64,000 bases of DNA from assembly GCF_018320785.1 (NCBI RefSeq), contig NC_054865.1:35278398-35342397 (forward strand), in the 5' to 3' direction. The DNA comes from Cheilinus undulatus. Taxonomy: Eukaryota; Chordata; Actinopteri; Labriformes; Labridae. Both the position numbers and the translations under genes were made by a program. Positions 3,614 through 64,000 of the stretch are shown here, piece after piece (position 1 is the first letter of the stretch; each line of letters starts with the position of its first letter). The notes beneath the pieces were generated by a model. The model was given only the letters and a program-made list of their open reading frames with translations. It was not told where the DNA came from and did no database searches.

Positions 3614-5544
3614 GGGCCAATGTTTTGTTTTTTTTTTTTAATTTAAGAATCAAACTTTATTGCACTTTTCAAGATACAAAACAGACTTACAACTCGTATG
3701 TATACAGTCATGTACTTAATGTATATAATTGTATAAAATTATTAAGTGCATTAGCAATAAGAGAAAGAACAAACAAGTGAACATTAAATGCTAGAGGGGA
3801 ATGAGTGTCTATGTAGCGATATCAAACATATTACAAGCTGAAACAGTTTTAATTGCTTTTTGTTTTTCAAAATATTTGATGGAAATCATATATAGACATC
3901 TACAGTAAGATGCTGCAGATGTTTTATCAGTCTGTGGTGGCAAGTGTTCTGTTTTTTGCTACAGTCTGCTGGGGAGGCAGTGTAAAACACAAGGATGCAA
4001 GGCGTCTGAACAAACTGGTGAAAAAAAGCTGGCTCTGTGGTTGGAATTAAGTTGAACTCATTGGAGGATGAGGTGGAGAGATGCACAATGAAGAAGGTGG
4101 AGGCCATTCTGGGGAACATGGATCATCCACTTCATATCTCCCTAAATGACCAAAGAAACAACGGTGGTGGACGGCTCCTTTCTCTTCGCTGCAGGACAGA
4201 GAGATTTAGAAGATCTTTCATACCATCGGCTATAAGACTGTATAATTCCACTGTAAACAGATGAGACTTCCAGACAAATGAATTTCCCTTCGGGGATAAA
4301 TAAAGTTATTGTATTGTACTGTATTGTATATTGCTTGAACTCATTTAAAAAGGTATTGAAATGTGGTCTTTTGCCTGAAAATTTACATCTATGGATATGG
4401 AATTTGGCCAATATAATAATAAGATTTATCAGGAATACACTGTTATTTTCATTTTTGCAGTTTTCCAAGAGTTCAAACAATACATTCTTCCATAGTAATA
4501 CAAAATGTTTATCTATTTTTTTGTGAATGAAATCAAAGAGTTTTTGCCAGAACTTCTTTACACTCGAGCAATACCAAAATAAATGTACAACATTTTCAGG
4601 ACAAATTTTGCAGAAGCTACAGTTGGAATCAATATCAATTTTAAACTTATTTTTAATCTAAAGTTTTGATGGGTAAAACGTATGGATAAGTTTGAAGGAG
4701 ACTTCCTTGACTTTATTGGTGATCAAATACATATTGGGTAAAAGCCAAACCTTCCTCCATTCCACATTATCCACAAACACGTTCCAGTAAGAAATGACAC
4801 AAGGTAAAGATGTTATATCCTTTTGAAACAGTCTCCTTATAGATCTATTGTTGCTAATAGAATGACTGGAACAACAGATTTTACATATTAGAGTGTTTAC
4901 TGGTGATAGTAGGGGTGGGTGTTGACCACCAGACCTAGGTTGAAATTTTAAAAGCATTCATACTCCAGAGGGTATGGCACCAAACACTTTTGGCAAATCC
5001 CCAGGTATTACAGGTATTTTATATTGTGACAAAAATTTTTCATATGTGAAAAGAATACCCTGCCAATTAAAAAGCTGATCTACCAGTAAAATATCGTCAA
5101 ACCAGTTTTTCATGAAGAGAGACTTGTGTTTATATAAGATGTCCTTGTTATTCTAGATGTAATACTTGTGAGGAGAAAAGCTGTGCTTGTAGATAAGTGA
5201 CCATGGTAAAAAGGCTTGGCGATAAATAGCAGACATTTTTACAGTAATTTTATCAGTATCAAAGTTACAGAGAAGAAAAAAATCTATACCACCAAGTTTT
5301 GATAGTATTTGGAGATTTGGAGGTAAGATTTTGATCTTTGGTGATTAGTTCCTGAGTGTTAGACCTCAGTTTTCATTGAAATGTTATAATTTTGTTTAAT
5401 TCAAGCACAGACCAGAAGCCTTAGAGAATCCCCTGATTACATCAGTTGCTACAGCGATTTGATTTTCATCTTTTAAAAACAGTGCCAGTTGAGTTATAAT
5501 TGATTCTTTACCGAAAAGAGAGAGACACCTTTGGGCCAATGTTT
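3614..5544 (-). mobile_element. 5'-truncated L1/Tx1-type LINE with 12-bp target duplication
   Basis: GGGCCAATGTTT occurs at 3614-3625 and again at 5533-5544, and the interval between has the layout of a LINE insertion on the - strand. A T-run (poly-A tail on the - strand) lies directly inside the left copy. The - strand at 4335-4960 encodes recognisable pieces of the ORF2 C-terminus of L1/Tx1-type elements: the conserved NKVKEVSFK stretch, a CSFC..CPENVVHLFWYC zinc-knuckle-like motif and INLIIILAKFHIHRCKF. Stops and frameshifts break the frame, so the copy is dead. An L2-type fragment on the opposite strand interrupts it at about 3890-4330. Exact duplication ends are seen directly; the clade is assigned from memory of the family. 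Confidence 0.8.
3890..4330 (+). mobile_element. L2/CR1-type LINE 3' end nested in the L1/Tx1 copy
   Basis: The + strand frame reads a reverse-transcriptase C-terminal segment starting MLQMFYQSVVASVLFF. It continues as degenerate sequence through a DREI.KIFHTIGYKTV-like region typical of fish L2 elements. The segment ends with the characteristic TTTCCCTTCGGGGATAAATA and a short TTGTA-type simple repeat at 4305-4328. Frameshifts and stops make it non-coding. The opposite-strand L1/Tx1 frame resumes directly after it, so this insertion is the younger one. Confidence 0.75.
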
Positions 5545-9900: not shown

Positions 9901-12900
9901 CGATTCTGTTGTACAACTCTGGATAGTTTTTCCTCAAACCCTGCACCCCTTTCACCTTGAGTTTTTTCTTGCAATCCTAGTATCTGCCTGCTGGTTTATC
10001 CTGGTTCTGCACCAATCAAACAGCTCTGTAGTCATTATTAAAGTTTGTCATACCAGACCACTCATCAAAAACCCGCAGTAGAGATGCAGTTATGAAAATT
10101 CTTTTAAGTATGAATGATACCAGAATAAGAATTTTCAATATGATACTCTTGAATTAAAACAGTATTGAAACTTGTTTCAATATCACAGCAACAGAAAATG
10201 ATTCCCTGGGCACCTAAAAATAGGGAATTTAGTTAATTTTTACTTCCACCCTTCACATTAGAAAGATTCCCTTAACACAGACCAAAATAAGACACACTGT
10301 CAGCTGTATTGAAAGTACAATGAATATGAATTTTTTAATAAACAATAGGGGTGGGAGAATAAATCGAGCATAGTAGCATAGTATTAGCATAGTATCACAG
10401 TATTTTGTCTGGTGATATATTGTATTGTCTTGTCCACCAAGTATCGTTTTTTTCCCCCCAAATTAATTGCTAATATAAACTGAAGTGTATGATTTTGGAC
10501 AAATAAAATCAGTTGTTGGACAATTGTTTGTCCAGTGAGGTCGGTAGAGGTGTCGGTCATACAGCAGGAGAAAGTTGGTACAACAAACATGGCAGCACCA
10601 GGGGAGGGGCATCAGGAATGCAAGCAGGGCACGATTGAGATGGACATGACACATGAGGTTTGCAAGAAGTGCTACATGAAAATAAAATACTGCAGAAATA
10701 TGACAAACATGAGGGCAAGACTACTGCTAAATTAGCTAAACACTTGAAAAAATGGTATAGATTACAACATTTCACAATATACCGGTACATCTCAAAAATT
10801 AGAATATCATGAAAAAGTTCAATATTTTTGTCACTCATCTCAGAAACTGAAACCCATATATTACATAGACTCATAGCACATAGAGTGAAATATTTCAAGC
10901 CTTTATTTCTTGAAATGTTGATGATTATGGCTTACAGATAATGAAAACCCAAAATTCAGTGTCTCAGAAAATTAGAATATTGTAAAAAAGTTCAATATTG
11001 GAAAGTCATGGTGTCACACCCTAATCAGCTAATTAACTCAAAATACCTGCAAAGGTTTCCTGCGCCTTTAAATGGTCTCTCAGTCTGGGTCAGTAGGCTA
11101 CACAATCATGGGGAAGACTGCAGACTTGACAGATGTCCAGAAGACAGCTATTAGCTGGGTTTCCATTACACTTGGAAATGCGCAAAATCGAAATAGCGCA
11201 ATAGAAAACTGGTAATGGAAACACCTGAATTTCGAAAAAACTCTAAAATATCGCTAAAAAGTTTTTGCGCTTTCATGAGGAGGTTTTGTGTTCTGATATA
11301 TAAATGTATCGCAAAAGTGTCATGGAAACACTTCTTCTGTCTACACGTACCGTGCCATGTTGTCTTGGAGTGACTGGTCATGTGACACCATGCATCACGT
11401 CCCGTGACTTGTAAATGCAGAAAAAGAGACAAGACTTTTCTTAACATCATACTTATACCCTTATACGTGGCTTTTGCCATACATATGGACTTTACCTCTG
11501 AACTATCATCCGTTGCTTTCGTCTTTTGTTCAAATCTATCAAGGCAGCCGGCATGGATGTAACCAAAACCGTACCGACACGCAACAGGTTTTGAGCATCA
11601 AGCTTCCCTGCAGCAGATTCACGCAAGATGAGATTTTACGAGAATTGCAAGGCCTATGCCCAAAACTCCCTTCAATGGAAATGCATTCAAAGCGCAATTG
11701 TACTTAATTGAAATTTAAGAAATATCGCTTTTATATTGCAAAAAACTGTAATGGAAGCCCAGCTATTGACACCCTCCACAAGGAGGGTAAGCCACAAAAG
11801 GTCATTGCTAAAGAAGCTGGTTGCTCACAGAGTGCTGTATCCAGTCATATTCATAGAAAGTTGAGTGGAAGGAAAAAGTGCGTTAGGAAAAGGTGCACCA
11901 GCATAAGGGATAACCGCAGCCCTGAGAGGATTGTCAAGCAAAATCCATTCAATAAATTGGAAGAGCTTCACAAGGAGTGGACTGAAACTGGAGTCGGCGC
12001 ATCAAGAGCCACTACGCACAGACCAATCCTAGACATGGGCTGCAAATGTGGCATTCCTCGTGTCAAGCCATTCTTGAACCAGAGACAACATTAGAAGCGT
12101 CTTACCTGGGCTGTGGAGAAAAAGAACTGGACTGTTGCTCAGTGGTCCAAAGTCCTCTTTTCAGATGAAAGTAAATTTTGCATATCATTTGGAAATTAAG
12201 GTCTCAGAGTCTAGAGAAAGAGTGGGGAGGCACAGAAGAAGAAGTTTCCACAGTCAGTGATGATTTGGGCTGCCATGGCATCTGCTGGTGTTGGGCCACT
12301 GTGTTTTCTGAAGTCCACAGTCAATGCAGCCATCTACCAGGACATTTTAGAGCACTTCATGCTTCCTTCTGCTGAAAAGCTTTATGGAGATGCTGATTTC
12401 ATTTTCCAGCAGGATTTGGTACCTGCCCACACTGCCAAAGTTACCAAAAACTGGTTCAATGGCCATGGTGTTACTGTGCTTGATTGGCCAGCAAACTGGC
12501 CTGACCTGAACCCCATAGAGAACCTATGGGGTATTGTCAAGAGGAAGATGAGAGACACCAGACCCAACAATGCAGATGACCTGAAGGCCGCTATCAAAGC
12601 AACCTGGGCTTCCATTACACTTGAGCAGTGCCACAGGCTGATCGCCTTCATGCCACGCTGCATTGATGCAGTAATTCATGCAAAAGGAGGCCCAACCAAG
12701 TATTGAGTGCATAGAAATGACAACTTTTCAGAAGCCAGACATTTCTGTTTAAAATATCCTTTTTACTGATCTTATGTAATATTCTAATTTTCTGAGACAC
12801 TGAATTTTAGGTTTTCATTATCTGTAAATCATTATCATCAACATTTCAAGAACTAAAGGCTTGAAATATTTCACTCTATGTGTAATGTCTATTTAATATA

Positions 12901-26425: not shown

Positions 26426-29400
26426 ATGGTACAGTACCAACCGAAGTTAAACTGAACGTTAGCTTGGCTGCTACAGACTTAGCAGCTTAGTTTACAGCAC
26501 GTGTACTGTTTCATGTCTTCGTTGTTTTTTTCTTCTTCTCCTTGGGACAGAGTCGTCACTGGATGTACAGCCAGCAGCAGAGGTTGCTGTCTCAGCGCCA
26601 AAGTCAGGAGCAGCACAGGGCAGAGGAGGCCCGGCGTCTGGATAGAGAGAGGCAGCTACAGGCCAGTCTGCGGGACCAGGAGGGCTTTGACAGGAGGAGA
26701 CACCTGCGACAGGTACAGGACGAGCTCAAGATGAGGCAGATGGAGAGCGATCTGCTGAAGGTATGTTATATAATGATGGACAGGCAATGTTGCTATAAAC
26801 GTAACCTGAACAGTATAACACAAAACCCTGTCGTATTACAAGCTATTAATATTATAGGAAACTAAAGCCTAGTTGAGCAAGGCATAAAGAAGTTTATGTA
26901 GTCTGAAATTTAATGTTTCTTCACAGCAGACAGAAACTTTGTGTCATGATCAGACTTGACTAACCTTTAATCTGTGATGGAAAAATAACTTGGTTATTAC
27001 TTCAGTTTTTTGACAAATTTGAAGAAAATAAAGTTTTCATTCAACATTTAACTGTGTGGGTATCAGAGACTGTGAAGATGTTTTTATTAGCAAACTCTGA
27101 AAGTTTCAATCATTAAAGTGTAATTTTATTTCACAATGCTTTGCAGTATTGTCAGCATGTTACCACTGACTTAACCAATTTCAAATGTAGAGAACACTTT
27201 TATTTTCTTACAGGCAGAGGAGGAGAAGACAATCAAAGAAAAGCAACTTGAACAAGAGGAAAGAATAGCTAAAGAGCTGGCCCGTATCAACTTTGAGAAG
27301 CAAAGAGAGGAGAAAATGAGGCAGCATATCAAAGAGAACAGGTATGCTCACTTAGCTTAGTTGTTTAATCTTGTCCACAATGCAAGTCTGACACTCATTG
27401 TTTGTGCATTTCCTTTCTCTGCTGATGCTGTCTTGTATTCCTTGTTATTTTTGAAAAGTCTATCTTAACGTTTCAGCCTGGAGCTCCAAGAGTTGGAGTT
27501 AAAGCTGAAATCTGCTTATCTGAACAAGGAAAGAGCCGCACAGATTGCTGAACAGGAAGCTATGAGGTTTGAGACAATGGTGAGCCCTGTCTTCATTTTT
27601 TAAAATTACTGACAAAAAAAAAATCAAAATATAATTTGGCTTTTTGACAAAAAAAAAAAAACCCTCCACAATGTAAAAAAAAAAAAACAGGTTTCTACAA
27701 TGTAATGTTAATTAAATAAAATATGTAAGGGAAAAATACGTGACTGCATAAATATGCACCCCCTTTACAGTGACTGACCTATGTCCAACTGATGTCCAGC
27801 CAATTGGTTCTAGTATTCTCACAATTAGTGAAATTGGGATCACCTGAGTGCAGTGAATGTTTAAAGTGATTGTAGTATAGAGACACCTGTGTCTTGAACA
27901 TCAATTCACTGGTTCATCAGTATTCCTGGCACCCATTACACCATGAAGATGAAATAACACTTGAAGCAACTTAGTGAAAAGGTTGGAAGATAGTTTTTTG
28001 GTCTGATGAGAACAGAATGGTGCTCTTTGGCCATCAGAAAAGATGCTATGTTTGGTAGAAACCAAACACTTCACATCACCACAAACGTACCATCCCCACT
28101 GTGAAGCACAATGGTTACAGCATCATGCTGTGAGGATGCTTCTCAGCAGCTGGCCCTGAAAGACTTTAAAGGTAGAGGGTAAAATGAATGTGGCAAAATA
28201 TAGGAAAACAATCTTATTCAGTCTGCAAGAGAACTACTGCTTGGGAGAAGATTTATTTTCAAGTAAGACAATGACCCCACACATACAGTGAAAGCTACGC
28301 ATAAATGGTTCAAAGACAAAGTGAATCTTCTGTAGTTGCCAGACCTCCTAGACCTCAATTCAACAGAGAATTGTGGCTGAACTCGAAAAGGGCTGTCCAT
28401 GCCTGATTCCTGTGCAACTTGACAGAGATTTGCAAAGAAAAATAGAGTAAAATTGCGGTGTCCAGATGTGCAAGCCTGATTGAAACCTATCCACACAGAA
28501 TCAGTGCTGCGAATTAAGCCAAAGGTACATCTTCTAAATACTGACTTGCAGGGGGTGAATATTTTTGCAGTCACTTTTTTATATTTCATATTTTTATTCA
28601 TGTGACCTGACTTTGTTCAAACCTGTTTTCACTTTGACATTAAAGAGGTTTTTTATGTCATTTTTTGGACAAAAAAAAATTCAATTATCCACAATTGATT
28701 TATAAGACCAATGAAAGGGTAAAACACCCAAGTGAGAGAATACTTTTTATAGGCACTGTATATCTGTTTTTATTATTTACAGTTTGTATTGAGAAGGTTT
28801 GATTAGCTGTAAGACATATGTAAAGTGATATTTTGATGCACATTATTGTTTGCTACAGTTGTGTTGGTACAGAATAATCCTGAGTTTAGATTACAAGCTT
28901 TACAGTACATACCCTCTCTCTCTCAGCGCAACGAGGCAGCCTATGCCCACTGTATGAAGCTTGAACAAGAGCAAGCAACCGCTGAACAGCAGAAGCTGGA
29001 GAAGAAACACCAAGAGGAGGTGGTGCAGTATCAGAGAGAGCTGGAGCAGCAGCTGCTGGAGAGGGAGTACAAAAGACAAGAAGCTTATGAGGAGTTCCTC
29101 AAAGAGAAGCTCATGGTGGATGAGATTGTCCGCAAGATTTATGAGGAGGATCAGATGTAAGGGATTATTAATCCTCATTACTGGAAAGTGTTTCAATATC
29201 TCAATTCTGTTTGAGAATTTGTTCTCTACTTGAGTGGAGTACATTTTAAATTAAAACTACTGTTTTTCTAAAGGGAGAGGCAGCTGAAACTGGAGAAGGT
29301 CAGAGCCACTCAGCAGCACATTGAAGAGTTCAAGAGACAGCAGGCCAAGTGGAGACGGATGGAGCAGGAAAAGATGGAGGAGGAGAACAGACGCATCAGG

Positions 29401-30591
29401 GAGTTTGCAAGCTATCAGCAGCACATGGAGGAGGCCAGGATGGCGAAGATCAGGGAGCGAGAAGAAGCAAAAGAGCATCTGCAAAAAATAGTTGAGATAC
29501 CATTTTCTCCCAAAAATGCTACTTTTGTATTATCATTCAATGAGATTTGATTCTCAACTCATTTCTATTTCACTGCAGCTGACTGAGAAGATAGAAGAGG
29601 AGAAGCAGCAGCGTGAAGAAATGGAGCGAGTGCGTGAGGAACTTTGTTTAGAGGAACAGGAGGAGGCTAACAGGCAGAGAGAAATTGTAAGTATGGCTGC
29701 TTTAATGTCTCACTATTTAAACAGCCATTAATATGTAGTTTTGTTCACTGATTATCACTTATGTGCACCATTTACTACATACTATTGTGTTTCTTCCTTC
29801 CATGAGTGGCATGTGCTGAGTCTTGTGTCCTCTGGTGCTTTGATCTTTTAGTGTATCTAAATAATCTTAGGAATATTTTATAACACGTTTATCTAACAGG
29901 AAGCGATGGAGAAGAAAATCAGACACAGGCTGATGATGCAGCAGACCTATCAGGAGCAAATGGCTTTCAAAGAGATGCGTAGGCAGGCAGAGAAAGAGGA
30001 AGAGGAGGCCTTCAGGAAAATGATGATGGCCAAGTTTGCAGAGGATGACCGGATTGAGCAGATGAACGCTCAGAAACGACGCATGAAGCAACTGGAACAC
30101 AAACGTGAAGTGGAGAAACTGATAGAGGAAAGAAGACGACAGATTCAGGCTGATATGGTACAGAACACTCTGAACATTTACAGAGAAAATAGGGCTGATT
30201 CATTGAACATTATAAAGCTGATCTATCTGTTATTTTTTAATGATGTGCTTTGATAATAATGTTGGTTTCTTTTCTAAAGGAACTGGAGGCCAAAGAAAGA
30301 GCAATTGAGCAGGAGAGAGAGGTGCTGCGTAGACAGATAGTTGAAGAAGAAAGGCAGAAACTTCTTAAACGTCACGCAACAAAACTCCTTGGATATCTAC
30401 CAAAGGTATGAGGCAGCACAAGATTCCTGACTCATTTAACATTATATTCTAAAGATGACACATGCATGTGACCCTGCATCTTTTTCCAGGGCTTGCTCCG
30501 TGTAGAAGACCTGCAGCACTTTGATGAAAACTTCAGGAAAAACTTTCAAACTCGTCAGACAGATATGTTCTCTGATGAAGATGATGAGTGA
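26426..30591 (+). CDS. mns1: meiosis-specific nuclear structural protein 1 (axonemal inner protein)
   Basis: Ten coding exons: 26426-26428, 26551-26760, 27214-27341, 27477-27579, 28927-29156, 29274-29490, 29579-29686, 29900-30157, 30280-30405, 30490-30591. They join cleanly into 494 codons, against about 495 in man. Nearly the whole protein is a charged Glu/Lys/Arg/Gln coiled coil of the trichohyalin-plectin-homology type. Diagnostic blocks are LKEKLMVDEIVRKIYEEDQ, KFAEDDRIEQMNAQKRRMKQ and ATKLLGYLPKG; the tail is acidic and ends DEDDE. MNS1 is a microtubule inner protein of motile cilia and flagella and is needed for sperm tails and left-right patterning. The first coding exon would be the ATG alone, before a 122-bp GT-AG intron; if exon 1 is non-coding, translation starts at the ATG at 26563. 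The 1.3-kb intron 27580-28926 hosts a transposon. Confidence 0.95.
27590..28762 (+). mobile_element. Tc1/mariner-superfamily remnant in an mns1 intron
   Basis: The right end reads GAATACTTTTTATAGGCACT at about 28740-28759. The left end is obscured by A-rich runs. The + strand holds a decayed transposase with GPEHRL-type frames broken by stops. It includes the segment decoding to a TIPTVKH...IML.GCFSAAGP-like block, which is Tc1 transposase just before the second catalytic Asp. It is the same family as 55890-57430. Confidence 0.75.
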
Positions 30592-52300: not shown

Positions 52301-55300
52301 AGCTGGAGAAGGCACCTTTCATTTTCTTCAATTTCATGGCAATCCTTCCAGCAGTTGTTGAGAGAATTGAGTAAATTTTACGATAGTGAATGATTTTATA
52401 ATGTGATCTGATATTTCAATTGTTAGAACAACTATAAAGCGCTGCAATACAAGACCAAACAAATAAGATTTTATACTGCATTGCTCTTCTTGATTGGTAA
52501 ATTGCCTCTACATATGATATTATTTTGTCTTGATGAAGAGAAAAGCCAAATATCTTTTTTCTATTTTTACAGCAAGATGTGGAGAAATTCTCTGATATTG
52601 AAAAACTCTACCTCTACCTTAAGTTGCCTTCTGGTCCCAGCAGCAGCAGCAGCAGCACTGATAAAAGGTAAGAATAATCCTGCCCTCTGACTGAATACAG
52701 TATAAATGTCTGTTTGCTGCTGTCTTTAAATGCTTTGTATGTGAATGACAAAGAGATACAATTATTGTCACACACGCACACTCTCAGCATGAGGTAAGAG
52801 AACTGAGTAGGTAAAGTGTTGCAGCTTTTGTCTTTTTATTTAATCAATTAATGATCCTTATCTGCTCTCAGTGACCAGAGCGCCCTGTCATCAAGCCGCA
52901 CGCAGCAGATGCACGCATTCAGCTGGATCCGCAATCACTTAGAAGAATACCCAGAAACCTCTCTGCCAAAACAGGAAGTCTACGATGAATACAAGTAGGT
53001 TCAAAAAGGGGAATGTGTTTGCTATATACAAAACGTGATTTCAAAAAGTTGGGACAATGTGTTAACTATGATTTGCAAATCCTTTTCCATCTACAGTATA
53101 TTCAATTAAATACAGCACAAAGACAGAACATTTGATGACAATTGATTGTTCCACAAAAGTTGGGATGGGAGCATATCTATCACAGTGTCACATCCATCAT
53201 CTTTTTTTCTCACAACACTAAGTAAGGGTCTGGGGACTGAAGATACCAATTACTGAAGTCCCATTATTCCTTAATGTTTATCTTAAGTTACTTAACAGTG
53301 CGTGGTTGCTGTTCTCATATTTTCTATCATAATGCACCATTCATTTTCACTGAGAGATGGGTCTAGTATCTGTAGTCAAAGCCATGCTTATGAAACTCCT
53401 CTAGATTGGTTTGCCTTTGTCTGGCTGGTAAAAGCAGGGGCATCATAACAAAGACCGATGTTTCTCCAAAAACCTGTTTGCCTCTCAGCATTTATGGTAC
53501 TTTCACAGAAGTGCAAGTCACTCATACCATTGTCACTAATACACCCCAACAGATACTTGATTTTAACAGGGTTCCTGCAGATATTTAAATAGTTTTAAAT
53601 TAAATATTATAAATTTAAGGCCATAAAAATCTTTACAAATTTTTATTCATACTAGTGAGTGTTCTTAAATTTTAGAGACACTTTGACTTAGACTTGTCTT
53701 TATCCAATGTTTCTTTTCTACATACATTTATTAGATCTTTTTTGAGTAAATGCTTTTTGTGTGTTATGATAAATATCACTATACCTTACACTGATAAAAA
53801 AATAATCAAATGTAGATGTTTATGACTAAGAAAAATCTCTTTTCCTATATTGATTGACATTTCATTTACAGTGAATTACACCAGATAAATAAGCTCTGTC
53901 CGCTGGGATGAGAAATCTCACACGCCTTTCATTTTATGGTATTAATTTTTCTCAGCTCGGGTCTTAAACTTGATACTTAAAAGCGCTAACTTACTTAAAA
54001 GTGTGTTGAACCTTGTTTTGAACTTTGCATTAATAATAATCAGGACAATCCTGTTCCTCTATTCTCCAGAGAGCTCCATGGTCATTATTTCCAAAAACAA
54101 TTTGAAATGTGGACTTGACAGACCACATCACACTTTAGGCCTGTCCGTCTCAGATAAGTTGGGCCCAAAGAACTCGTTGATGCTTATGGACGTTGTAAAC
54201 ATACGGCTTTTGCTCTGGATGGTAAGCGTCTTCACTTAGATTTGTAGAGGCAGTGACATACTCTGTTAGCTGACAATGGTTTTCTGAAGTGTTCCAGAAA
54301 CCACATCGTAAGATCTATTACAGATTGATGTCGGTTTTAAATATAGTGCTGCCTGAGGGGTCGAGGTCATGGGCATCCAGTGCTAGTTTTTGGCTTTACC
54401 CCTTATGTGAAGGTATTTCTCCAGATTCTCTGAATCTTTTGATGATATCATGGACCACAGATGGGGAAATCTCTAAATTTCTGCAACATTGTTTATAAAA
54501 TGTTGGATTGTCAGTGCGGTCTTACACAAAATGGAGAATCTTGTGCCATTGTTGATTGTGAATGAGCCTTCTAGGAGTGCTCCTGTTATACCCAAAAAAT
54601 GTTACCAAAACTTATTACCTATTAGTCTACGTACCTGTGGGATTTTCCATGTTTTCCTCACCTTTTACACAATGGCCCAACATTTTTGGAATTGGAGTTA
54701 GTACATTAATAAATGTTTTTGAACACTACCAGTGATTTTCAAGCAGAGACTTTCAATCTTGCAGTATCTCTTATAGAATTGTATTACTCATAGTTTCTCA
54801 TTGAACACAAACTCTATTTTTTACCCTTAACTTCACTATGTGTTTGAATATTTTCATTGAAGTTGGACCTTTGAATGGATGAGCTACTAATGTGTGAGAT
54901 TCTTACTCTGGCGGCTGAAGCGTCAGTATAAATAGACGCAGCCAGCCTGGGAAATCACAGAGAGCAACATGTGTTGGTAATATTAGAATGGAAAGTCTGA
55001 GACAGCCATTGAAATGTTCTGACAGTGTTATGTAACTGTCTTTTTAACTCTAGCAGATCAGAAATACTGCGCCCTCCAGAAATATTGGCGCCTTTCAGAC
55101 AGACAGGTGAAAAGGCTTTAAAGAGACGCAGTATGCTTCACTTCAAAACAACAAAACATTTTGCTTAGTTTGTAGTAACATGTTCAGTAAAGTCAGTCAG
55201 AATCTTTTCCACACTACATGTAGTTCATTTTTTTTTAAGTCCCTAAAATACTCACAAAACTCTTGTGAAAATTCAAAACGGGGGGATTGTTGCAGTAAGT

Positions 55301-58300
55301 AGCACATATTAACACATTACAGAAGTACTAAGTACTTTATGTAAGATGAGAATCAGGTATGAATGTCACTCAAAGTAGTTTACAACATGTTCTCATTTAC
55401 AAATGTGTTGAACTGTGAGCTACTATTAAGCTCTAGTGTTGCAGTTTTACACACTTTACGTATTTTTATTTTAGAGCCTCCGTCAGTGCCTGCCGTGCAC
55501 CCCACGCCCACTTTCAATACATAACCAGTACAGTCCAGCATTTTCCATACATCAACATCAGCAGTTTGTTGTTACTGAACTCTCACATTTTCAGCTGAGA
55601 AGAAAAACTCACCTTTTGAACATAGCTCTGCTCACCAGTGTCACTTCTCCCTAATAGACCAATCAAAATCAAGAAGGGGTGGGACTTCTAATATCAGCCT
55701 TGTAAACAACAATGGTGGGTGAGACCTAGATTATTTTGAGGGTACAGCTGCTGCAAATATCAGGACAGGATTCCTTTACATTATTTATGTTTTCTATGTG
55801 ATACTGAATAAAATAAGTAAAAAGAGCTAATTATACACAATCTTATGAGGGGAACAGAAGTCAGATTTCATAACATGGCAACCACAAATGCAAAAAAAAG
55901 TAAAATCATGGGTATTGCCAGTGAGAAAAAGAAAATTGGCAAAAAAATATGAAAAACCCTCTTTAATTCAAAGTGAAAACAGATTTCTATGAAGTAATGT
56001 CAATTAAACAAAATATGAAAGCTAAAATAAATGATTGTATGAATTTCGACCCCTCTTTTAAGTGACTGACCTAATTCAACAGAGGTCCAGCCAGTTGGTG
56101 CTAGCAGTCTCACAACTGGTGAGTTGGGGATCACCTGAGTAGAATGAATATGTCTCAAGTGATTTTAAGTGTTGCAAGAGCCGGCTCCACAACAAGCTGC
56201 AGGTCGCCATGGTGGGTCATAAAGTCGATATGAGTTACTTATACAAACACCTGGGAGAGGAGACGTCGGTGCTGAAGGAGCTCTCAGATGGCTTGTAGTA
56301 TAGTATAGATTGTTGTATAGACACCTGTGTCTGGAAGGTCCATTCAGTGGTTAATCAGTATTCCTGGCTACCATTGCACCATGAAGACAAAGGAACACTC
56401 CAAGCAGCTCAGAAAAATTCCAAGGCACAGTTCAGTTACATCCATCATCAAGAAATGGAAGGAATGTGGCACATGTGTAAATCTGCCTAGATCAGACCGT
56501 CCTCACAAACCGTGCAAGGAGACTAGTGAGAGAGACCACCAAGACACCTATGACTACTCTGAAGGAGTTACAAGCTTCAGCAGCTGAGATTTGAGAGACT
56601 GAATGCAACAACTGTTAGACAGGATCTTCACCAGTCAAAGCTGTACGTAGAGTGGCAAAGAAAAAGACACTATTGAAGAAAAATACATATTAAATCTCGA
56701 CTAGAGTTCACCAAAAGGCACATGGGAGACTCCATGGTCAAGTGGAAGAAAGGTCTTTGGTCTGATGAGGCCAAAATGGTACTTTTTGGCCATCAGACAA
56801 GACACTATGTTTGGTGGACACCAAGCACTGCATGTCATCACAAACACACCATCCCCACTGTGATGCATGGTGGTGGCAGCGCCATGCTGTAGGGATGCTT
56901 ATCAGCTGCTGGCCCTAAATTACTTGTTAAGGTAGAGGGTAAAATAAATGCAGCAAAATATGGGAAAATACTGGAGGACAATCTAATTCAGTCTTCAAGA
57001 GAACTATGGCTTGGGAAAAGATTTATTTTCAAGCAAGACAGTGACCCCACGCTTATAGCAAAAGCTCCACAGAAATGGTTTAAAGACGACAAGGTGAATG
57101 TGCTGGAGTGGCCGAGTCAAAGCCTAGACATCAAATCCAATAGGGAGATTGTGGCTGGACTTGAGAAGGGCTGTTCAAGCCTGATCCCCACAAAACCTGA
57201 ATGAGCTTGAGCAGTTTTGCAAAGAAGAAAAGAGTAAAATTTCAGTGTCCAGATGTGCAAGCCTGATTGAGATCCTTCCACACAGACTCAGTGCTGTGAT
57301 TTCAGTCAAACTGCATCTACTAAATACTCACTTGAAGGAGGTGAATATTTCTGCAGTTGCTTATTTTACATGAAATAATTTTATTTCATTAACATTAATT
57401 TGTAGTAGTCTGTTTTCCATTGATGTTAAATTTGTATTGTCTTTTGTCCAGAAAGCTCTCCACCAACTTATGATGAAAATATCTAGTTTTATTGCTGCTT
57501 AACTCTCCCACGGATCAAGATCTATGATATCAGATCTTTCTTGTTAATTTTTAATTTCTTTTTCGCTGGAGAACCAAGTTAAACCTCCAGATAAAAAACA
57601 AAAACATTCAAGTTCTTTGCTCTTAAACCAAAATTGAGACTGAAAAACACTTAAGTGTTGTGCTGCTGAATGAAGCTGCAAGTTGTTTTATTTTTCTTTC
57701 AGAACTTCTTTATTTGTTCAAGCCAATATTACCTCAAAAAGAAATAAAAAGGTACTCTATAATACAAAATAATAGTAATACAAGTTAGAGATGCACAGAT
57801 TGTGAAAATTTGGGCCAATATTGATGATCAAAGTAGCAATTTAAAAAATTGCCTACCAATACCAATGTTTTTTTTTTAATCATCCCTTCTTTTGGTGCGA
57901 CCCTCCCACTGGGCCAATATTTTCTCTTGTGTTTGACCATGAAAACAGATCAATTTGTCCAATGGGTGAGCTCTTCTGCCCAGTATGAAATGTTTGATTC
58001 AGCAGTTAGGTGAACTGGATGCCAATATTTAATTGATATGGCACAACAATTAAACATTGGCTACTGATAGCTTTTCACAACACATTGTTTACAGGTAGCA
58101 GATGTTTGTTAACAGGGCTGATATCAGCCTAATACCAGTGTTAACGCATATAAGACAGAGATACTGATATGAATTAAACTTTACCTGTATAGCGCCAATT
58201 CATAACAAATGTTTTCTCAAGACTCTTTACTCTTTATTAGATTATCCAGAGACACTTAACATGTGGCAAAGTAGAACCAAATTCATGCAGAACAGCCATT

Positions 58301-61300
58301 GTGTTGCACATTTAAAACTTAATGTGGTGATATGTTACCACATCGTATGATATACGATTTATGGTATAAAACTGTGGCTTTATTCAAAACAGGCATGAAT
58401 CATCTTTGTCATTCTTTATATTCTTCTGTGTTTATTGTGTTTCAGGAGCTTCTGTGACAATCTGAACTACCATCCCCTGAGTGCTGCAGACTTTGGAAAG
58501 ATGATGAAAAACGTCTTCCCCAACATGAAGGCACGTCGACTTGGCATGAGAGGAAAATCTAAATATCCTTTACTGGAAAGGGTTTTAACCGTCTGGTCTC
58601 TGACTCTGGTCACAGACCATCTGCTGCTGCAGTTCATAAGCTCTCTAAATATAGATGTGAGATGAAATAAAGTCCCCCTCTGCCTCAGAAGCACAAGCAT
58701 AATACAGAGGGCCCTTTGGGGGAGTCTGTTCTTTTGACCTTCATGACGCAATTGTGTCCTTTTTTGTCAGACAGCTATGTTAATATTTATGACCTTTAGT
58801 TGGTGGGGTCAATCAAAGTGTCATTGTGTAAGGTGAGATCCCACATCAGTCATTTATGGATAACAGTGTGAAAAAAACTTAACTGTTTTTCTTTTGAAAC
58901 AATTTTTTCTTCATCCTCAAATGAGCAAAATGCAAAGATGCTAACATTGATTATTAATTTATATCATAATTCTATTAAAAGTACTTATTAAAAATGTACA
59001 AAAAATAAAAACCCAGACATTCACTTTAAAATGACAGACACAGAGGTTAAATTGACTCAAACACAAACAAAAATGACAGCATCACAAGAAATTAACAGAA
59101 TATCACTTCGTGCCTTTCTGTTTTCACTAAAACCCATAAAAGAAAATGAAAACTTTAAATGTATCAGTTCATGGTGTCAGTATGATGAGTTGTACTATAC
59201 ATAAATGTGATTTAAAAGCACATGCTTCAGACACAGTTGCAAAAAGATTGCTTTAAAAAGACCAATTAAATGTATCTAATGTTAGCAAATTTCCTCACAG
59301 GACCCAAGCACGTCCTCTAAAGAAAATGTGGGACAGACAATATGTATTGAAATCAATAACACTGATTCACACTGAATCATTTTGTACAGTTGATCTTCAC
59401 TGCAAAGCTTAAAAAATGTTTGGTTTTGTCATCTGTGGGGTCACTTTGAAACCTTTGCCTGACTGTCATAAGGCTGATCCATCTTGAAAAGCTGCAATCC
59501 ACATTTGTGCGACATTTTGGGAGAACGAGGCGGTAGCTGTGGGTGGGGTAAAGTTGTGCTGTAAGCTTTTAGCAATGGCTGCCTCCAGTGTTGTAATTAG
59601 CTCAGAAGGAGCTATAGTTTAGCAACAGTTTTGTCACAACTGGACCACATTTTTTATCTAAACAAGAAAAAAGATGTTTAAGCTCTTCTGGCGACCTGTT
59701 TTGGCAGGAGTTTGTGATCATTACTGGTGAGGGGGGCTTGTAGTGTCAGCCAGTGTGCACAGTTGCTGCTGGTGAAGTGATTAGCTTGGATGTAGCCCCA
59801 GTGGCAGTTCTATAAAAAATGGATCACATTTGTTTATTTAAACAAGAGCAAAGAGTCGCACTGAAAGCTTTTCATGACTGAGAAGATGTGTTCCCTCTTC
59901 AGCCAACCTGTTTTGGTATGAGTTTGCAATCATTACTGGGTGGGTTGGGTTGTATTGTAAGTCAGTCCAATGGCTACCGCCATGGTAGCGATTAGCTTGG
60001 ATGTAGTCCTGCCTTGCCCAAACGCTTTGTATGGGAGGTTTCCCAGATGAATGTGAAATATATCCATGCAATGGATATATGAAACAGTCTATCTGGAGTG
60101 TCAGGTTAGTCACTTTGCACTTAACAGCAGATTCTCTTAAAATAAACATCCATATTAAAACACAAACACATATCCAGAGCTTGAAAAAGTATCTGATGGT
60201 ATTTCTGTGAGAACTTTGGCCATAGAATAAGGTTGCACCATTCTTATTGCAAACATTCAAGCAGATTTGATGTGTTTGATGACTGAGGCAATATATCTGA
60301 GCTGAAATTTAACATGCTGCTTCTAACAGCTTATATCCAAGTCAAGATGCTGATTTAAGTGAAACTTGGTGTGCTGTCTTAATTTTACAGAGGCAACTTA
60401 GGGATTAGTCCTGAAAATAATGAGCTCTGGATTTGTTGTCTTTGCATCATTAAAGTTATGGGGAAAACATTCCTTTTTCATTTGTTTGTCCAAATTTAAA
60501 AAAACAACACATTAGCATATTTTGTTTGGAAGTTGAAAAGTTTGGGAAAGTATTGTTACAAAAGAAACATTTTATAATAACAGAAGAAGAGAAAACTGAT
60601 TTTGCAGTATCCCTTCGTTATTCCTTGAACTGTACATTACCATTCTTCTTCCTCCTGAATCATGTTTTTGTTCTTAACACCAGTGTACATATTGCTACAG
60701 TGGACTAAGAAAGAAGCCCTTTGTTCACATGCCATCATTACCGACTCTGGATATCCATAATACAGGAGACGTAAGTGCATTAACATCTTCATCCTGCTAA
60801 TGATGATATAATTTGCATAAGTGACTGAATCTATTTGTTTTCTGACTTTCACAGCTGTGCCATGCAGCATGCCAAGTATTTCTAACTCTTATATGAACTG
60901 TTTTTAGCTCCAGTGTGACCTCCTGGAGTCAGCAGGCCATCTGAGTAACATAAAGGAGGAGGTCCGATTCGCAGCCTGTGACCTCGTGTGTGAGTGGGCC
61001 CAAAAAGTGCTGAAACGCCAGTTTGATGCCGTAGAGGATCTAGCTCGCTTCCTTGTTGACAGCCATTACATCAGCAACAAGTCCTTGGCTGCTCTCACCA
61101 TTACAACAGGCACAGCAACAGGTAAGACTCACCACACCTGTGACTCATGCCCCCGTGTGGAAACTGGCCTGTAGTGGCATCTGGTGGCTGACGGCTGTTA
61201 CCGCACATGACAGTCTACAGAAGCCAGAAATGAGGTTCAATTAAGGTCGTCACAAAATTCAATACTCCTGTACTTTATAATACCACAAGCTTTGAAATGA

Positions 61301-62503
61301 CAGGTTGTCTGTTATAAGAATCAGCAATAGCATTGAAAAGTACATCTGCTTTTAAGATGTATTAGGTCATATTTTAAACCCAAAGCCAATGAGTCAAATT
61401 GCATATGTACACACATTGGCAATGCTGGAGTGCCAGTGTATTTGTGCAATTTATACAGTGTGGAGGAGTTTTCTATCAAGTTTGTTTATCAAATACAAGC
61501 AAGTAACCAAAGTGAATGCGGAGGACTTCAGTTTTTGTTTTTGTGATCTTGACACAAATATGAGATAATGTTAAAAATTCTAGTATTTTAAGATGCCTGA
61601 AACTTTTACATGTATTGATTATTGTTGATCACACTGTATGTTCAGGTGTTCTGCACAATGCAAGATATACTTATAGTTAAAAAAGAATCAACAAGTGCTT
61701 GTGCACTTTAGAAACAGACTGTTAGACTGAAGATACAGCGGCTGGTATTAAATTTGGTCTAGTTAGAATAAATTATTTGTTTGGCTGGAAAGTTCTGCTG
61801 TTGATTTTTGCTCCTTTTTTCCATTCCTCTCTGTGTTTTGATGCCTTTTTTGTTTCTCGTACTTGTAGCAATATTGACCAATTAAGGGTTTTAACTGTTG
61901 ACAATTACTAATGTTATGCATTTTCCATATTAATATATTTCATTAATTTATTTTTAAATTTTCAGTTTAATTGAATGTTTTTTCCGTATTATTGAATATA
62001 TTTTTCCCCTTATGTATATACTTTTGTATAATTCATTTATATATATTGTAAGTAGATTTGATCATTAATTTTGGCATTCTTGGTCCTTAGAAAGATATAA
62101 ATTTGCTTTCAATAAAAGTCTAATCACCAAACCGTATTGCACATGTAACTTCAGGCTTTACTTTAACTACATCTGCTATATTTACATTTTAAAGAATGAA
62201 GTCCTTCTTTTTCTTTCTACAGAGGTTCATACTCCTCCGGCGGTCTCAGCGTTCATCCCCACTGCCGAGGCTCACTCTTTCCAGCCTCATGTGACAACGT
62301 TGTCCTCACCTTCTGTCGATGCAAAGCAGCAGCTGCAGAGGAAGATCCAGAGGAAACAACAGGAACAGAAGCTGCAGTCACCTTCACCTGGAGAGGGACA
62401 GGCCAAGAGGATTGACGAGAGTTTGCCCTGTGCTAGTCCCCTGCCTCAGTCACCTCAGCCAGCTATCGGCATCATGGTCGCTGCTGTATCGAGCCCCATC
62501 ACA
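37303..62503 (+). CDS. rfx7: regulatory factor X7, N-terminal part (3' end beyond window)
   Basis: Eight coding exons: 37303-37427, 45432-45465, 52573-52667, 52872-52994, 58446-58562, 60689-60770, 60908-61121, 62223-62503, together exactly 357 codons ending in phase 0 at a GTAAGA donor. The start MAEEDPQQQ and the block [20 protein letters not shown] are RFX7's own. The RFX winged-helix DNA-binding domain spans about residues 98-174, from [13 protein letters not shown] to [18 protein letters not shown] at 180-185 fits the PxLPxL motif bound by ankyrin-repeat partners such as ANKRA2. A conserved helical segment ([20 protein letters not shown]) and a Gln/Lys-rich region follow. RFX7 is a nuclear transcription factor. 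About a quarter of the usual ~1,400 residues is here. Intron 5 is AT-AC type. Exon 3 encodes a six-Ser run. Teleosts may carry rfx7a and rfx7b; I cannot tell which this is. Confidence 0.95.
37428..39578 (+). other. rfx7 intron 1, first part
   Basis: Apart from a MITE-like element at 38408-38671, I recognise nothing. A G-poor C/A run (CCCCCCCCCCAAAAAA) occurs near 39192. No gene is supported. Confidence 0.45.
38408..38671. repeat. MITE-like element with GTTCACACTG ends
   Basis: The left end GCTATGTTCACACTGCAG and the right end GGCCTGTTGTTTGAATGTAGC are diverged inverted copies of the same terminus. The body is about 260 bases with no coding capacity. Flanks CCTTTA and CTTTTA may be the decayed duplication. 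Confidence 0.5.
39579..40919. mobile_element. hAT-like non-autonomous element in rfx7 intron 1
   Basis: A perfect 8-bp duplication GTAGTGTG lies at 39579-39586 and 40912-40919. It flanks inverted ends TAGGGGTGTGAC (39587) and GTCACACCCCTA (ending 40911), an exact 12-bp inverted repeat. Subterminal GAGACGAGAC / GATCTCA motifs occur at both ends. No transposase frame exists in the 1,325-bp body. The intact termini suggest a comparatively young insertion. Confidence 0.88.
42835..43180. repeat. teleost interspersed repeat
   Basis: It begins TAAATGGACTTGAGCTTAT and contains GCGCTTTTCTAGTCATCTGAC, AGTGTCTTGCCCAGGAACAC and GAGCTACAGCTGCCCC, all phrases of a very common fish repeat. The right end contains TGGCTCAGTTGG, which resembles a tRNA A-box, but no tRNA fold follows. 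Confidence 0.7.
43419..44150. repeat. possible degenerate hAT-like element
   Basis: The left part starts AGGGATGCATATTATC, with GATATTAGTATCCGCAGATA motifs. The right part near 44110-44140 has GCATATTAGATATCAGCAAA. This is the look of a fish repeat family starting AGGGATGCAC. I find no duplication. A similar patch with GAGATGCACAGATTG lies at 57788-58160. Confidence 0.3.
45466..46334 (+). other. rfx7 intron 2, first part, nothing recognised
   Basis: AT-rich intronic sequence without definable repeats, between exon 2 and the fold-back element at 46335. Confidence 0.4.
46335..47162 (-). mobile_element. Tc1/mariner-like element with long inverted arms
   Basis: The sequence at 46341-46375 (GAGCAGCAGGGCTGAGTATG) is matched in reverse complement at 47123-47158. 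The match continues inward for about 200 bases on each side, so the arms can pair. Between them the + strand retains decayed transposase text: a catalytic-region block decoding to DDNAHPHRA (46780-46810), then a frame related to NPLNTC and the segment TTGGCTGACTTGGGACAAAT. The transposase is interrupted by stops and deletions. The strand label follows no intact gene. Confidence 0.65.
47429..48404. mobile_element. non-autonomous DNA element with CAGAGGTGTCAA ends
   Basis: CAGAGGTGTCAAGTAAC at 47429 is mirrored by ACTTTTGACACCTCTG ending at 48404. Both subterminal regions carry acTT-rich text (TACTTAAGTAGAAATTT on the left, TTTACTTGAGTAAAAAG on the right) of a known fish family. The 976-bp body has no transposase. 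I find no clean duplication outside the ends. Confidence 0.65.
48405..51189 (+). other. rfx7 intron 2, middle part, nothing firm
   Basis: AT-rich. Section 49120-50060 reads on the + strand like badly decayed coding sequence with many stops, possibly an old LINE, but no motif clinches it. A - strand frame of 129 codons at 50785-51174 ([16 protein letters not shown]) has no recognised domain or splice context. Confidence 0.4.
51190..51378. repeat. short teleost repeat ending TTTTTACAGTCTATGG
   Basis: The segment contains GGAAGCTGCTGCGGATTGGC and ends CAGTTCTTTTTACAGTCTAT, both familiar from a dispersed fish repeat. It abuts the Tc1 remnant at 51380. Confidence 0.5.
51380..52140 (-). mobile_element. 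degenerate Tc1-like element
   Basis: The - strand decodes to Tc1 transposase pieces: [20 protein letters not shown] (51855-51730) followed by [10 protein letters not shown] and a degraded region where the second catalytic Asp block should be. The 3' portion near 51380-51560 still encodes the terminal region. Frameshifts split it over two frames; both ends are eroded. Confidence 0.7.
53030..54702. mobile_element. unclassified DNA element with AAAAAGTTGGGAC ends
   Basis: The left end has TTTCAAAAAGTTGGGACAAT and the right end has GGCCCAACATTTTTGGAATT. These are inverted copies with a few changes; the family is very common in teleosts. The body shows decayed text such as CACTTTAGGCCTGTCCGTCT but no intact transposase. 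I leave the superfamily open. Confidence 0.65.
55890..57430 (+). mobile_element. Tc1/mariner-superfamily copy with a foreign-looking insert
   Basis: Same family and orientation as 27590-28762 but longer. The + strand retains the transposase N-terminus ([19 protein letters not shown], a helix-turn-helix stretch, 56420-56475). It also keeps the middle block ([14 protein letters not shown], 56845-56885) with later catalytic regions eroded. Compared with the mns1-intron copy it carries about 125 extra bases at 56174-56297. Confidence 0.75.
56174..56297 (+). other. coding-like insert inside the transposon
   Basis: A GC-richer stretch interrupts alignable transposon sequence. One + frame reads [20 protein letters not shown] and continues to [10 protein letters not shown] followed by TAG, 40 residues with balanced composition. 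The element's usual text (ATAGACACCTGTGTCT) resumes downstream. I do not recognise the protein. It could be a captured exon fragment, a retrocopy piece or chance. Confidence 0.4.
58563..60688 (+). other. U12-type AT-AC intron of rfx7
   Basis: The intron starts ATATCCTTT (58563-58571), the textbook U12 AT-AC donor. It ends AC (60687-60688), preceded by a branch-point-like TTCTTAAC at 60671-60678, about 11 bases before the end. No GT donor at the exon edge would work. Removing exactly this segment joins AA|A into Lys165 and restores KSKYCYSGL, conserved in RFX7. Within the intron, 59640-60010 is a diverged direct duplication. Confidence 0.92.
59640..60010. repeat. diverged tandem duplication
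   Basis: Two adjacent units of about 165-200 bases share CACATTTTTTATCTAAACAAG / CACATTTGTTTATTTAAACAAG-type text, ACCTGTTTTGG, TCATTACTGG and GATTAGCTTGGATGTAG. No coding meaning is evident. Confidence 0.6.
61122..62222 (+). other. rfx7 intron 7, nothing recognised
   Basis: GTAAGA to TCTACAG. AT-rich DNA without definable repeats or other genes. Confidence 0.45.
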
Positions 62504-64000
62504 GTAAGAAAGCAGGACTCTTTTTTTTTTTTTGGATATGAGTTGAAACAGTCACACATTTTGGTGGATATTGACCAGATTTACTCACTGACTATTTTTA
62601 AGTGAGTGTAGACTTTTTATTAAAAGATTAGACTAGTCTTTTTCAACATGTCTGTGACATCTTTTTGGCAAGATAGGAATTAAACTTTGAGAAAGACCCA
62701 ACCCTGATCATCTTAAAACTCTCTGTGCCAATTAAATAAAGATCTCAAATCAGAAGATGTAGTCCTTACAGATCAGATGTTATTGTTTACATTTTAATAC
62801 ACGTAAAATAGGGTAAACATAAAAAGCAAAAAGTTGTGCCCCAATTAACATTAATGTGCTTCAGAGCACGAGTTGAATCTACTTAAATAAGACTGTCCTT
62901 TTTTTTTCAATTTGGCTGTAAATATGTGCTGTATATCACCACAGCATTACATAGATTTAGAAAAGCCAACTAGTTGACCCAGAAATTGATATTTTTTATA
63001 TGTCGGTCATTAATAAATTCATCACCTTTGAACTTTTAGGCAGTCCAAATTTCAGAAAATTTTGTTTGCTCTCTTTTGATTGCCAGTTTTTGTAAAACTG
63101 AAAAGGCAAGGCAAGTTTTATTTTTAAAAAACAAAACATTTATAACATTAACAACATTAAAATATAGCAAGAGGACTTTAGGAAAGAAGCATGTCATACT
63201 TTAAATTAAAAAGAAAGCTTAAAAATAAGAATGTAAAAACTTAAAAGTAAGATTGTAAACTTGCTCTTTACGCCATGCAGAGCTCTGGTGGACACAGATT
63301 CACCTGCTGTTCTTACCTAATTGAGATAGATGGGGTCTAACAGTCCATCCCAGAATGTCTTCCCAAGGATTTAGACTCACAGTTCACTCCATCTGTGTCG
63401 AGTACAGCCCAAAGCTGTGCTGGAAACATCTTGCAGGGTTGTTGTGGTTGAAAAATCCACTCACAGTCATGTATTGCTTCAGCTTGGAATTGATCTCAAG
63501 TTCCTTGAATTCTTAGTCTTTAATTTTTTGCTCTAAATTTGCTTTTAATCATTCAAATTAATGAGAACATTAAAGTATGTTGGGTCTGACAATTATAAAC
63601 AAATAACTATAAGTAATCAGCTCTGTGCCCACTCAAGAATTCAGTGCTTTGAAGTCACTGACCTAAGAGTCTAACTCTTGCCGACATAGATTCACAGACA
63701 TTGTCTTAGTCTAATTGAAATAAAATTGAAATAAATTCTGTTGCCCAGAATATCTTCCTTACAGTTTGCTCCATCAGTGTTGATTCACAGCTAACAGGTT
63801 ATACCCGTTTGTACTTAAGATGCCCAGAATGCATTAAAATGGTAATAAAAGAGGAAGAACTGTGTCATTATCCCAGACTTATGGATGGTAATATGATACT
63901 CCTGTGGGAATGTCATATGTACTTAAAATTAGTGCAGGTATTAAAATTAACTGGTGGAAATTAGATAACATGTTGCCAGATTTTAAGCTAGAATTCAGTT
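62504..64000 (+). other. rfx7 intron 8 (incomplete), with weak internal repeats
   Basis: The intron runs out of the window. Blocks at about 63280-63400 and 63680-63800 share ACAGATTCAC/ATAGATTCAC, CCCAGAATGTCTTCC/CCCAGAATATCTTCC and CACTCCATCTGTGT/TGCTCCATCAGTGT, an old direct duplication. The last 150 bases read like decayed LINE text but are too short to call. Confidence 0.45.

Follow-up and report, generated by a model that had tools for sequence, protein, structure and literature searches.

Within the 64,000-nucleotide window analysed here, the whole stretch of Cheilinus undulatus DNA under study, part of a vertebrate gene, probably rfx7, is carried on the + strand. The exon encoding the middle of its RFX DNA-binding domain breaks off inside a conserved motif, and the read-through frame ends at 58665, as a first-pass annotation of this DNA had pointed out. 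The locus thus poses a question of splicing: which intron interrupts the domain, and which of the two spliceosomes would remove it? The first-pass annotation had proposed a U12-type AT-AC intron. The features on which the answer turns are as follows.

52872..52994, + strand: upstream exon coding for the beginning of the RFX domain; its donor, GT at 52995, scores 6.74; start placed by eye after CTCAG
58446..58562, + strand: RFX-domain exon followed by the AT-AC donor; placed by sequence, site scores and the Pfam RFX_DNA_binding match of the joined protein
58563..60688, + strand: predicted U12-type AT-AC intron, 2126 nt, phase 2; placed by sequence, scores and the same intron in two paralogs
58563..58571, + strand: putative U12 5' splice site ATATCCTTT, exact consensus; kept as ATATCCTTT in a second rfx7 gene (C9) and as ATATCCTTC in rfx5
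58657..60683, + strand: nested GT-AG alternative, probably cryptic; donor GAT/GTGAGA, acceptor ACACCAG/T
60671..60678, + strand: putative branch-site element TTCTTAAC; probable branch A at 60677, 11 nt before 60688
60687..60688, + strand: 3'-terminal AC of the intron; shared by C9 and by rfx5, where it is free of shift ambiguity
60689..60770, + strand: exon coding for the last portion of the RFX domain; its donor is the GT at 60771; placed by Pfam on the joined protein

The identity of the domain is clear. When the exons 52872-52994, 58446-58562 and 60689-60770 are joined, their product matches Pfam RFX_DNA_binding with an E value of 8.7e-31 (106.8 bits, cut-off 27), and its top relative in the PDB is a chain named RFX5 (8zjr, E 2.3e-35), with hRFX1 (1dp7) also among the best. 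The name rfx7 is drawn partly from the stretch FIPTAEA... in the frame 62069-62605, which we take to be that of the human protein, and partly from a nearby gene that encodes a TPH domain, presumably mns1, the neighbour of RFX7 in man. This neighbour is represented by two exon-like frames at 28837-30250, with TPH matches of E 3.2e-14 and 1.2e-21, and is probably mns1. Searches of other pieces add little: Pfam gives zero matches for 52538-52669 and 60908-61123 and sub-cut-off matches only for 62249-62560, a scan of the window against Rfam at gathering scores returns 0 matches, and no relative is confirmed in the prokaryote and viral collections searched, as expected for a vertebrate gene.

Both termini ascribed to the intron are found in place, namely ATATCCTTT at the start and AC at the end, the 3' terminus reading GTGTAC. 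Translation of the exons joined at 58562/60689 restores the motif KSKYCYSGL, and when the solved RFX5 and RFX1 chains are aligned over this junction zero residues are missing or extra. The assertion that only this pair of cuts restores the motif stands up to a shift: ATAT follows both cuts, so that five equivalent joins yield an identical mRNA, and AT-AC termini appear only in the unshifted one, whereas the rfx5 gene described below is unambiguous. For the window gene, the protein locates the intron with a tolerance of four bases, short of single-base precision.

The internal signals fit a minor intron. Splice sites and branch sites were scored with approximate matrices, and on this footing the scoring of both ends suggested in the first-pass annotation gives a maximal value for the ATATCCTTT donor and 10.0 for the branch site. 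U12-type AT-AC introns carry a branch element like TTCCTTAAC some 10-16 nt ahead of their 3' end. The branch-like element announced about 11 bases upstream of the AC is indeed there, as TTCTTAAC at 60671-60678 with its A at 60677, and 7 of 9 bases match the consensus; in the span from the branch A to the intron end, further AC or AG dinucleotides occur at 1, 3 and 6 nt and are presumably too close for use. The flanking introns are ordinary, with GT donors after 52994 and 60770 and AG acceptors before 58446 and 60908; a branch site of this kind is missing from the acceptors at 58445 and 60907, which score -3.5 and -1.5 as against 10.0.

Taken alone, the donor and branch motifs mean little, because neither is rare in the window relative to shuffled sequence. 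RTATCCTTT has 3 matches on the two strands against a shuffle mean of 1.5, with at least 3 in 19 of 100 shuffles, and TTCTTAAC followed by AC has 2 matches against a shuffle mean of 2.01. If distance is ignored, an equal 7-of-9 branch match arises in 813 of 5000 shuffled versions of the intron's final 40 nt and in 1306 of 20000 random 40-mers from the window. Position is far more restrictive: the chance of the donor at one place set by the protein is about 1e-5, and on the approximate matrices 11 of the 7199 AC sites on both strands of the window have an equally high branch score at a distance of 8-18 nt. Among the three perfect donors in the window, only that at 58563 has an AC with such a branch score within 5 kb.

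More telling evidence comes from paralogs in the genome from which the window derives (1.17 Gb, 46 contigs). The DNA of the RFX-domain exon has one other genomic match, in the second rfx7 gene (C9), which is 88% identical and ends at intron position 11. A search with the RFX profile identifies 10 places, and the exon limits seen in the window gene (profile 29-31 to 70) recur in C9 and in an rfx5 gene (C16), the latter matching the RFX5 chain with E 3.8e-28 as compared with 1.8e-19 for the window gene. In C9 the junction reads ATATCCTTTACA, 1623 nt, ...CCCCTTAACTTATTCTCAC, then ATACTGTTATAGC; the intron has the donor ATATCCTTT, a CCTTAAC with its A at 11 nt and an AC end, and one of four equivalent joins is AT-AC. 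In rfx5 it reads ATATCCTTCACC, 226 nt, ...CCCTAACCTGCCTGGTTGATAC, then GTACTGTTACAGC; here the donor is ATATCCTTC, a CCCTAAC has its A at 16 nt, the intron ends in AC, and as a shifted join is impossible AT-AC is the only reading. All three introns are in phase 2, within the lysine codon before YCYSG. Ten of their first 11 bases are identical across the three genes, and beyond this the alignment breaks up. The AT-AC cut is accepted despite the ATAT ambiguity of the window gene because C9 and rfx5 repeat the intron, the latter unambiguously.

Donors were read at nine of the 10 RFX places, L013 being left out. Four genes (L005-L008), presumably rfx1-3 to judge from sequence, have GT donors some codons earlier, after RRLGTR; three of them read unbroken through SKYHYYG, and for L007 the 3 kb examined showed no SKYHYYG exon. 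In L012 and L014 a GT follows FGK directly. The donors of the rfx1-3-like and rfx4/6-like genes are thus GT and located elsewhere, and this sequence comparison assigns the AT-AC intron to the RFX5/RFX7 branch within this genome. Since rfx5 and rfx7 both keep the codon, the phase and the U12 signals, the intron would most simply be older than their split. According to a 2008 study, RFX5 and RFX7 arose by a single duplication that predates the split of the mammals compared (PMC2533330).

The machinery for minor splicing is represented in the same genome by Rfam matches over cut-off for U11 (C16), U12 (C21), U6atac (C3) and U4atac (C15 and C24). With these four minor snRNA families matched, the exon join and the same intron in C9 and C16, the assignment of a U12-type intron to the RFX domain is supported. 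By eye, AAAGGA of U6atac is complementary to UCCUUU of the donor, AAAGG of U11 to CCUUU, and GUAAGGA of U12 to the branch element with one A left out, from which pairing can be inferred. The donor ATATCCTTT would be paired first by U11 and then by U6atac, U12 would pair with TTCTTAAC except at the branch A, and the AC situated 11 nt beyond that A would serve as the 3' end, so that the joined exons would read through the RFX domain between SK and Y. The intron would have been present before rfx5 and rfx7 separated. A conserved phase-2 U12-type AT-AC intron, removed by the minor spliceosome through these pairings and predating the rfx5/rfx7 split, is the reading to which a probability of about 95% may be assigned; the act of splicing, the snRNA pairings, the age and a disabling of the domain on loss of minor splicing are what we infer from the sequence.

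Two readings would dispense with a minor intron. Some AT-AC introns are substrates of the major spliceosome, according to the part of PMC6717393 available, and U12 features could have arisen here by accident in an intron removed by the U2 machinery. This is countered by an exact U12 donor with a suitably spaced U12-like branch site, and by the retention of donor and branch in two paralogs whose introns otherwise differ, and the idea is very improbable. Even less credit is due to the notion that the intron is really of the common GT-AG type, with different cuts or a further exon, and that the AT-AC join misreads it. Its foothold is the ATAT repeat, which leaves the exact cut in the window gene open; yet 18 frame-preserving GT-AG pairs were enumerated and all of them fail to restore the motif, SK is followed directly by Y in the solved RFX5 and RFX1 chains, and the AT-AC arrangement is repeated in two paralogs. 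The earlier claim that a GT-AG gene model would fail here therefore holds as regards the motif. The truncation it named as one outcome need not follow, as the best pair leaves an open frame with a 33-residue insert.

That pair, 58657/60683, calls for closer attention. Among the 18 it is the only one with two good sites, and its use would add 99 nt, or 33 residues, with the frame kept and no stop. On the approximate matrices its donor scores 6.34 and its acceptor 4.49, which correspond to the 96.8th percentile among 3649 GT sites and the 88.9th among 4224 AG sites; two real donors close by score 6.74 and 7.27. Such qualities recall the Drosophila prospero twintron, in which a GT-AG intron is nested in an AT-AC intron and gives a product 29 residues longer (PMC3564746, in the part available). 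The likeness extends to an in-frame GT-AG pair adding some 30 residues and to a transcription-factor DNA-binding region as the site of the insert, as far as the available parts of PMC3564746 and PMC6865273 describe it; the difference is that the rfx7 isoform is a putative one and that its pair has no counterpart in the two paralogs. It is conceivable, though improbable, that the major spliceosome also uses this pair to make a regular isoform with the 33 extra residues. The best frame-preserving GT-AG sum is 10.8 in the window gene against 4.2 in C9 and 1.9 in rfx5, and a twintron is placed second because the paralogs have no comparable pair. A pair as good is moreover within reach of shuffling (18, 88 or 95 of 2000 shuffles, according to the constraints imposed), the Pfam score drops from 106.8 to 95 bits with the insert, and Table 1 of PMC3564746, with its 18 human twintron genes, includes neither RFX7 nor RFX5. 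Sequence comparison thus suggests that 58657/60683 is probably a cryptic site. It carries a warning for annotation: where only GT-AG sites are allowed, a gene model may come to include a believable but false in-frame insert of 33 residues.

Ordinary minor splicing of an A-type intron is, on the sequence signals, the best reading, and the rfx7 intron looks real and old, an ordinary instance of the known U12-type AT-AC class. It resembles other vertebrate members in donor consensus, branch element, AC end and branch-to-end distance, in a phase other than 0 and in being a single such intron beside GT-AG introns. There is no difference in kind; what distinguishes it is its location, the RFX domain of RFX5/RFX7. 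Among minor introns, AT-AC introns account for about 24% in mouse and 22% in man (PMC6717393). In the literature searched, RFX7 or RFXDC2 was not found in connection with minor splicing; intron databases and supplements may well list the intron. The term RFX is absent from the main texts, in the portions available, of PMC6717393, PMC10639083, PMC7367187, PMC6865273, PMC8034651, PMC12332006, PMC8329584 and PMC8280824. The kind of intron is well known; what the present analysis adds, as judged by alignment, is its conservation in three genes: in a single genome an AT-AC minor intron is kept at one codon of three RFX5/7 genes whose introns are otherwise unalignable.

Some consequences may be drawn by analogy. 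In the available part of PMC8280824, loss of CENATAC in human cells affects 92% of A-type minor introns, via retention or the use of major splice sites, and splicing is less efficient for A-type than for G-type minor introns; a dependence of this sort and a lower efficiency would apply to the rfx7 intron as well. A bolder proposal is that the intron is ancestral and retained throughout the RFX5/RFX7 branch, so that the less efficient A-type splicing gates the DNA-binding domains of RFX5, a regulator of MHC class II, and RFX7, a regulator in the p53 pathway; on failure of that splicing in this species, the strong nested GT donor of rfx7 would give rise to a protein with the 33-residue insert instead of a functional one. 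This is doubtful as matters stand. If human RFX5 and RFX7 keep the intron, inefficient RFX5 splicing would be a candidate to test in those minor-spliceosome diseases that show immune signs, one of which is the subject of PMC13087456.

Several minor observations concern the surroundings. U4atac has two places over cut-off, L018 (C15) and L019 (C24), at 97.4 and 84.3 bits, and U11, U12 and U6atac have one each. The window also holds sequences related to transposable elements; the Tc1-like ones, taken with the gene copies, suggest that the animal is a fish. Inside the intron 52995-58445, the region 56321-57204 is a decayed Tc1-like element with a weak Sleeping Beauty HTH match below cut-off; its inverted arms, 55962-56014 and 57378-57430, are 74% complementary, and two further frames of the element region gave zero Pfam matches. 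Another Tc1-like transposase lies at 11708-12706, with DDE_3 over and a Tc3-type HTH under cut-off, and a reverse-transcriptase-associated zf-RVT match below cut-off at 4142-4657 on the - strand is perhaps a LINE remnant. Within the AT-AC intron itself, an old 84-nt direct repeat, 76% identical, occupies 59671-59754 and 59883-59966, and the start of the intron (58550-58680) has a TGGTCT...AGACCA stem and a fold better than that of 196 among 200 shuffled versions (z -2.17).
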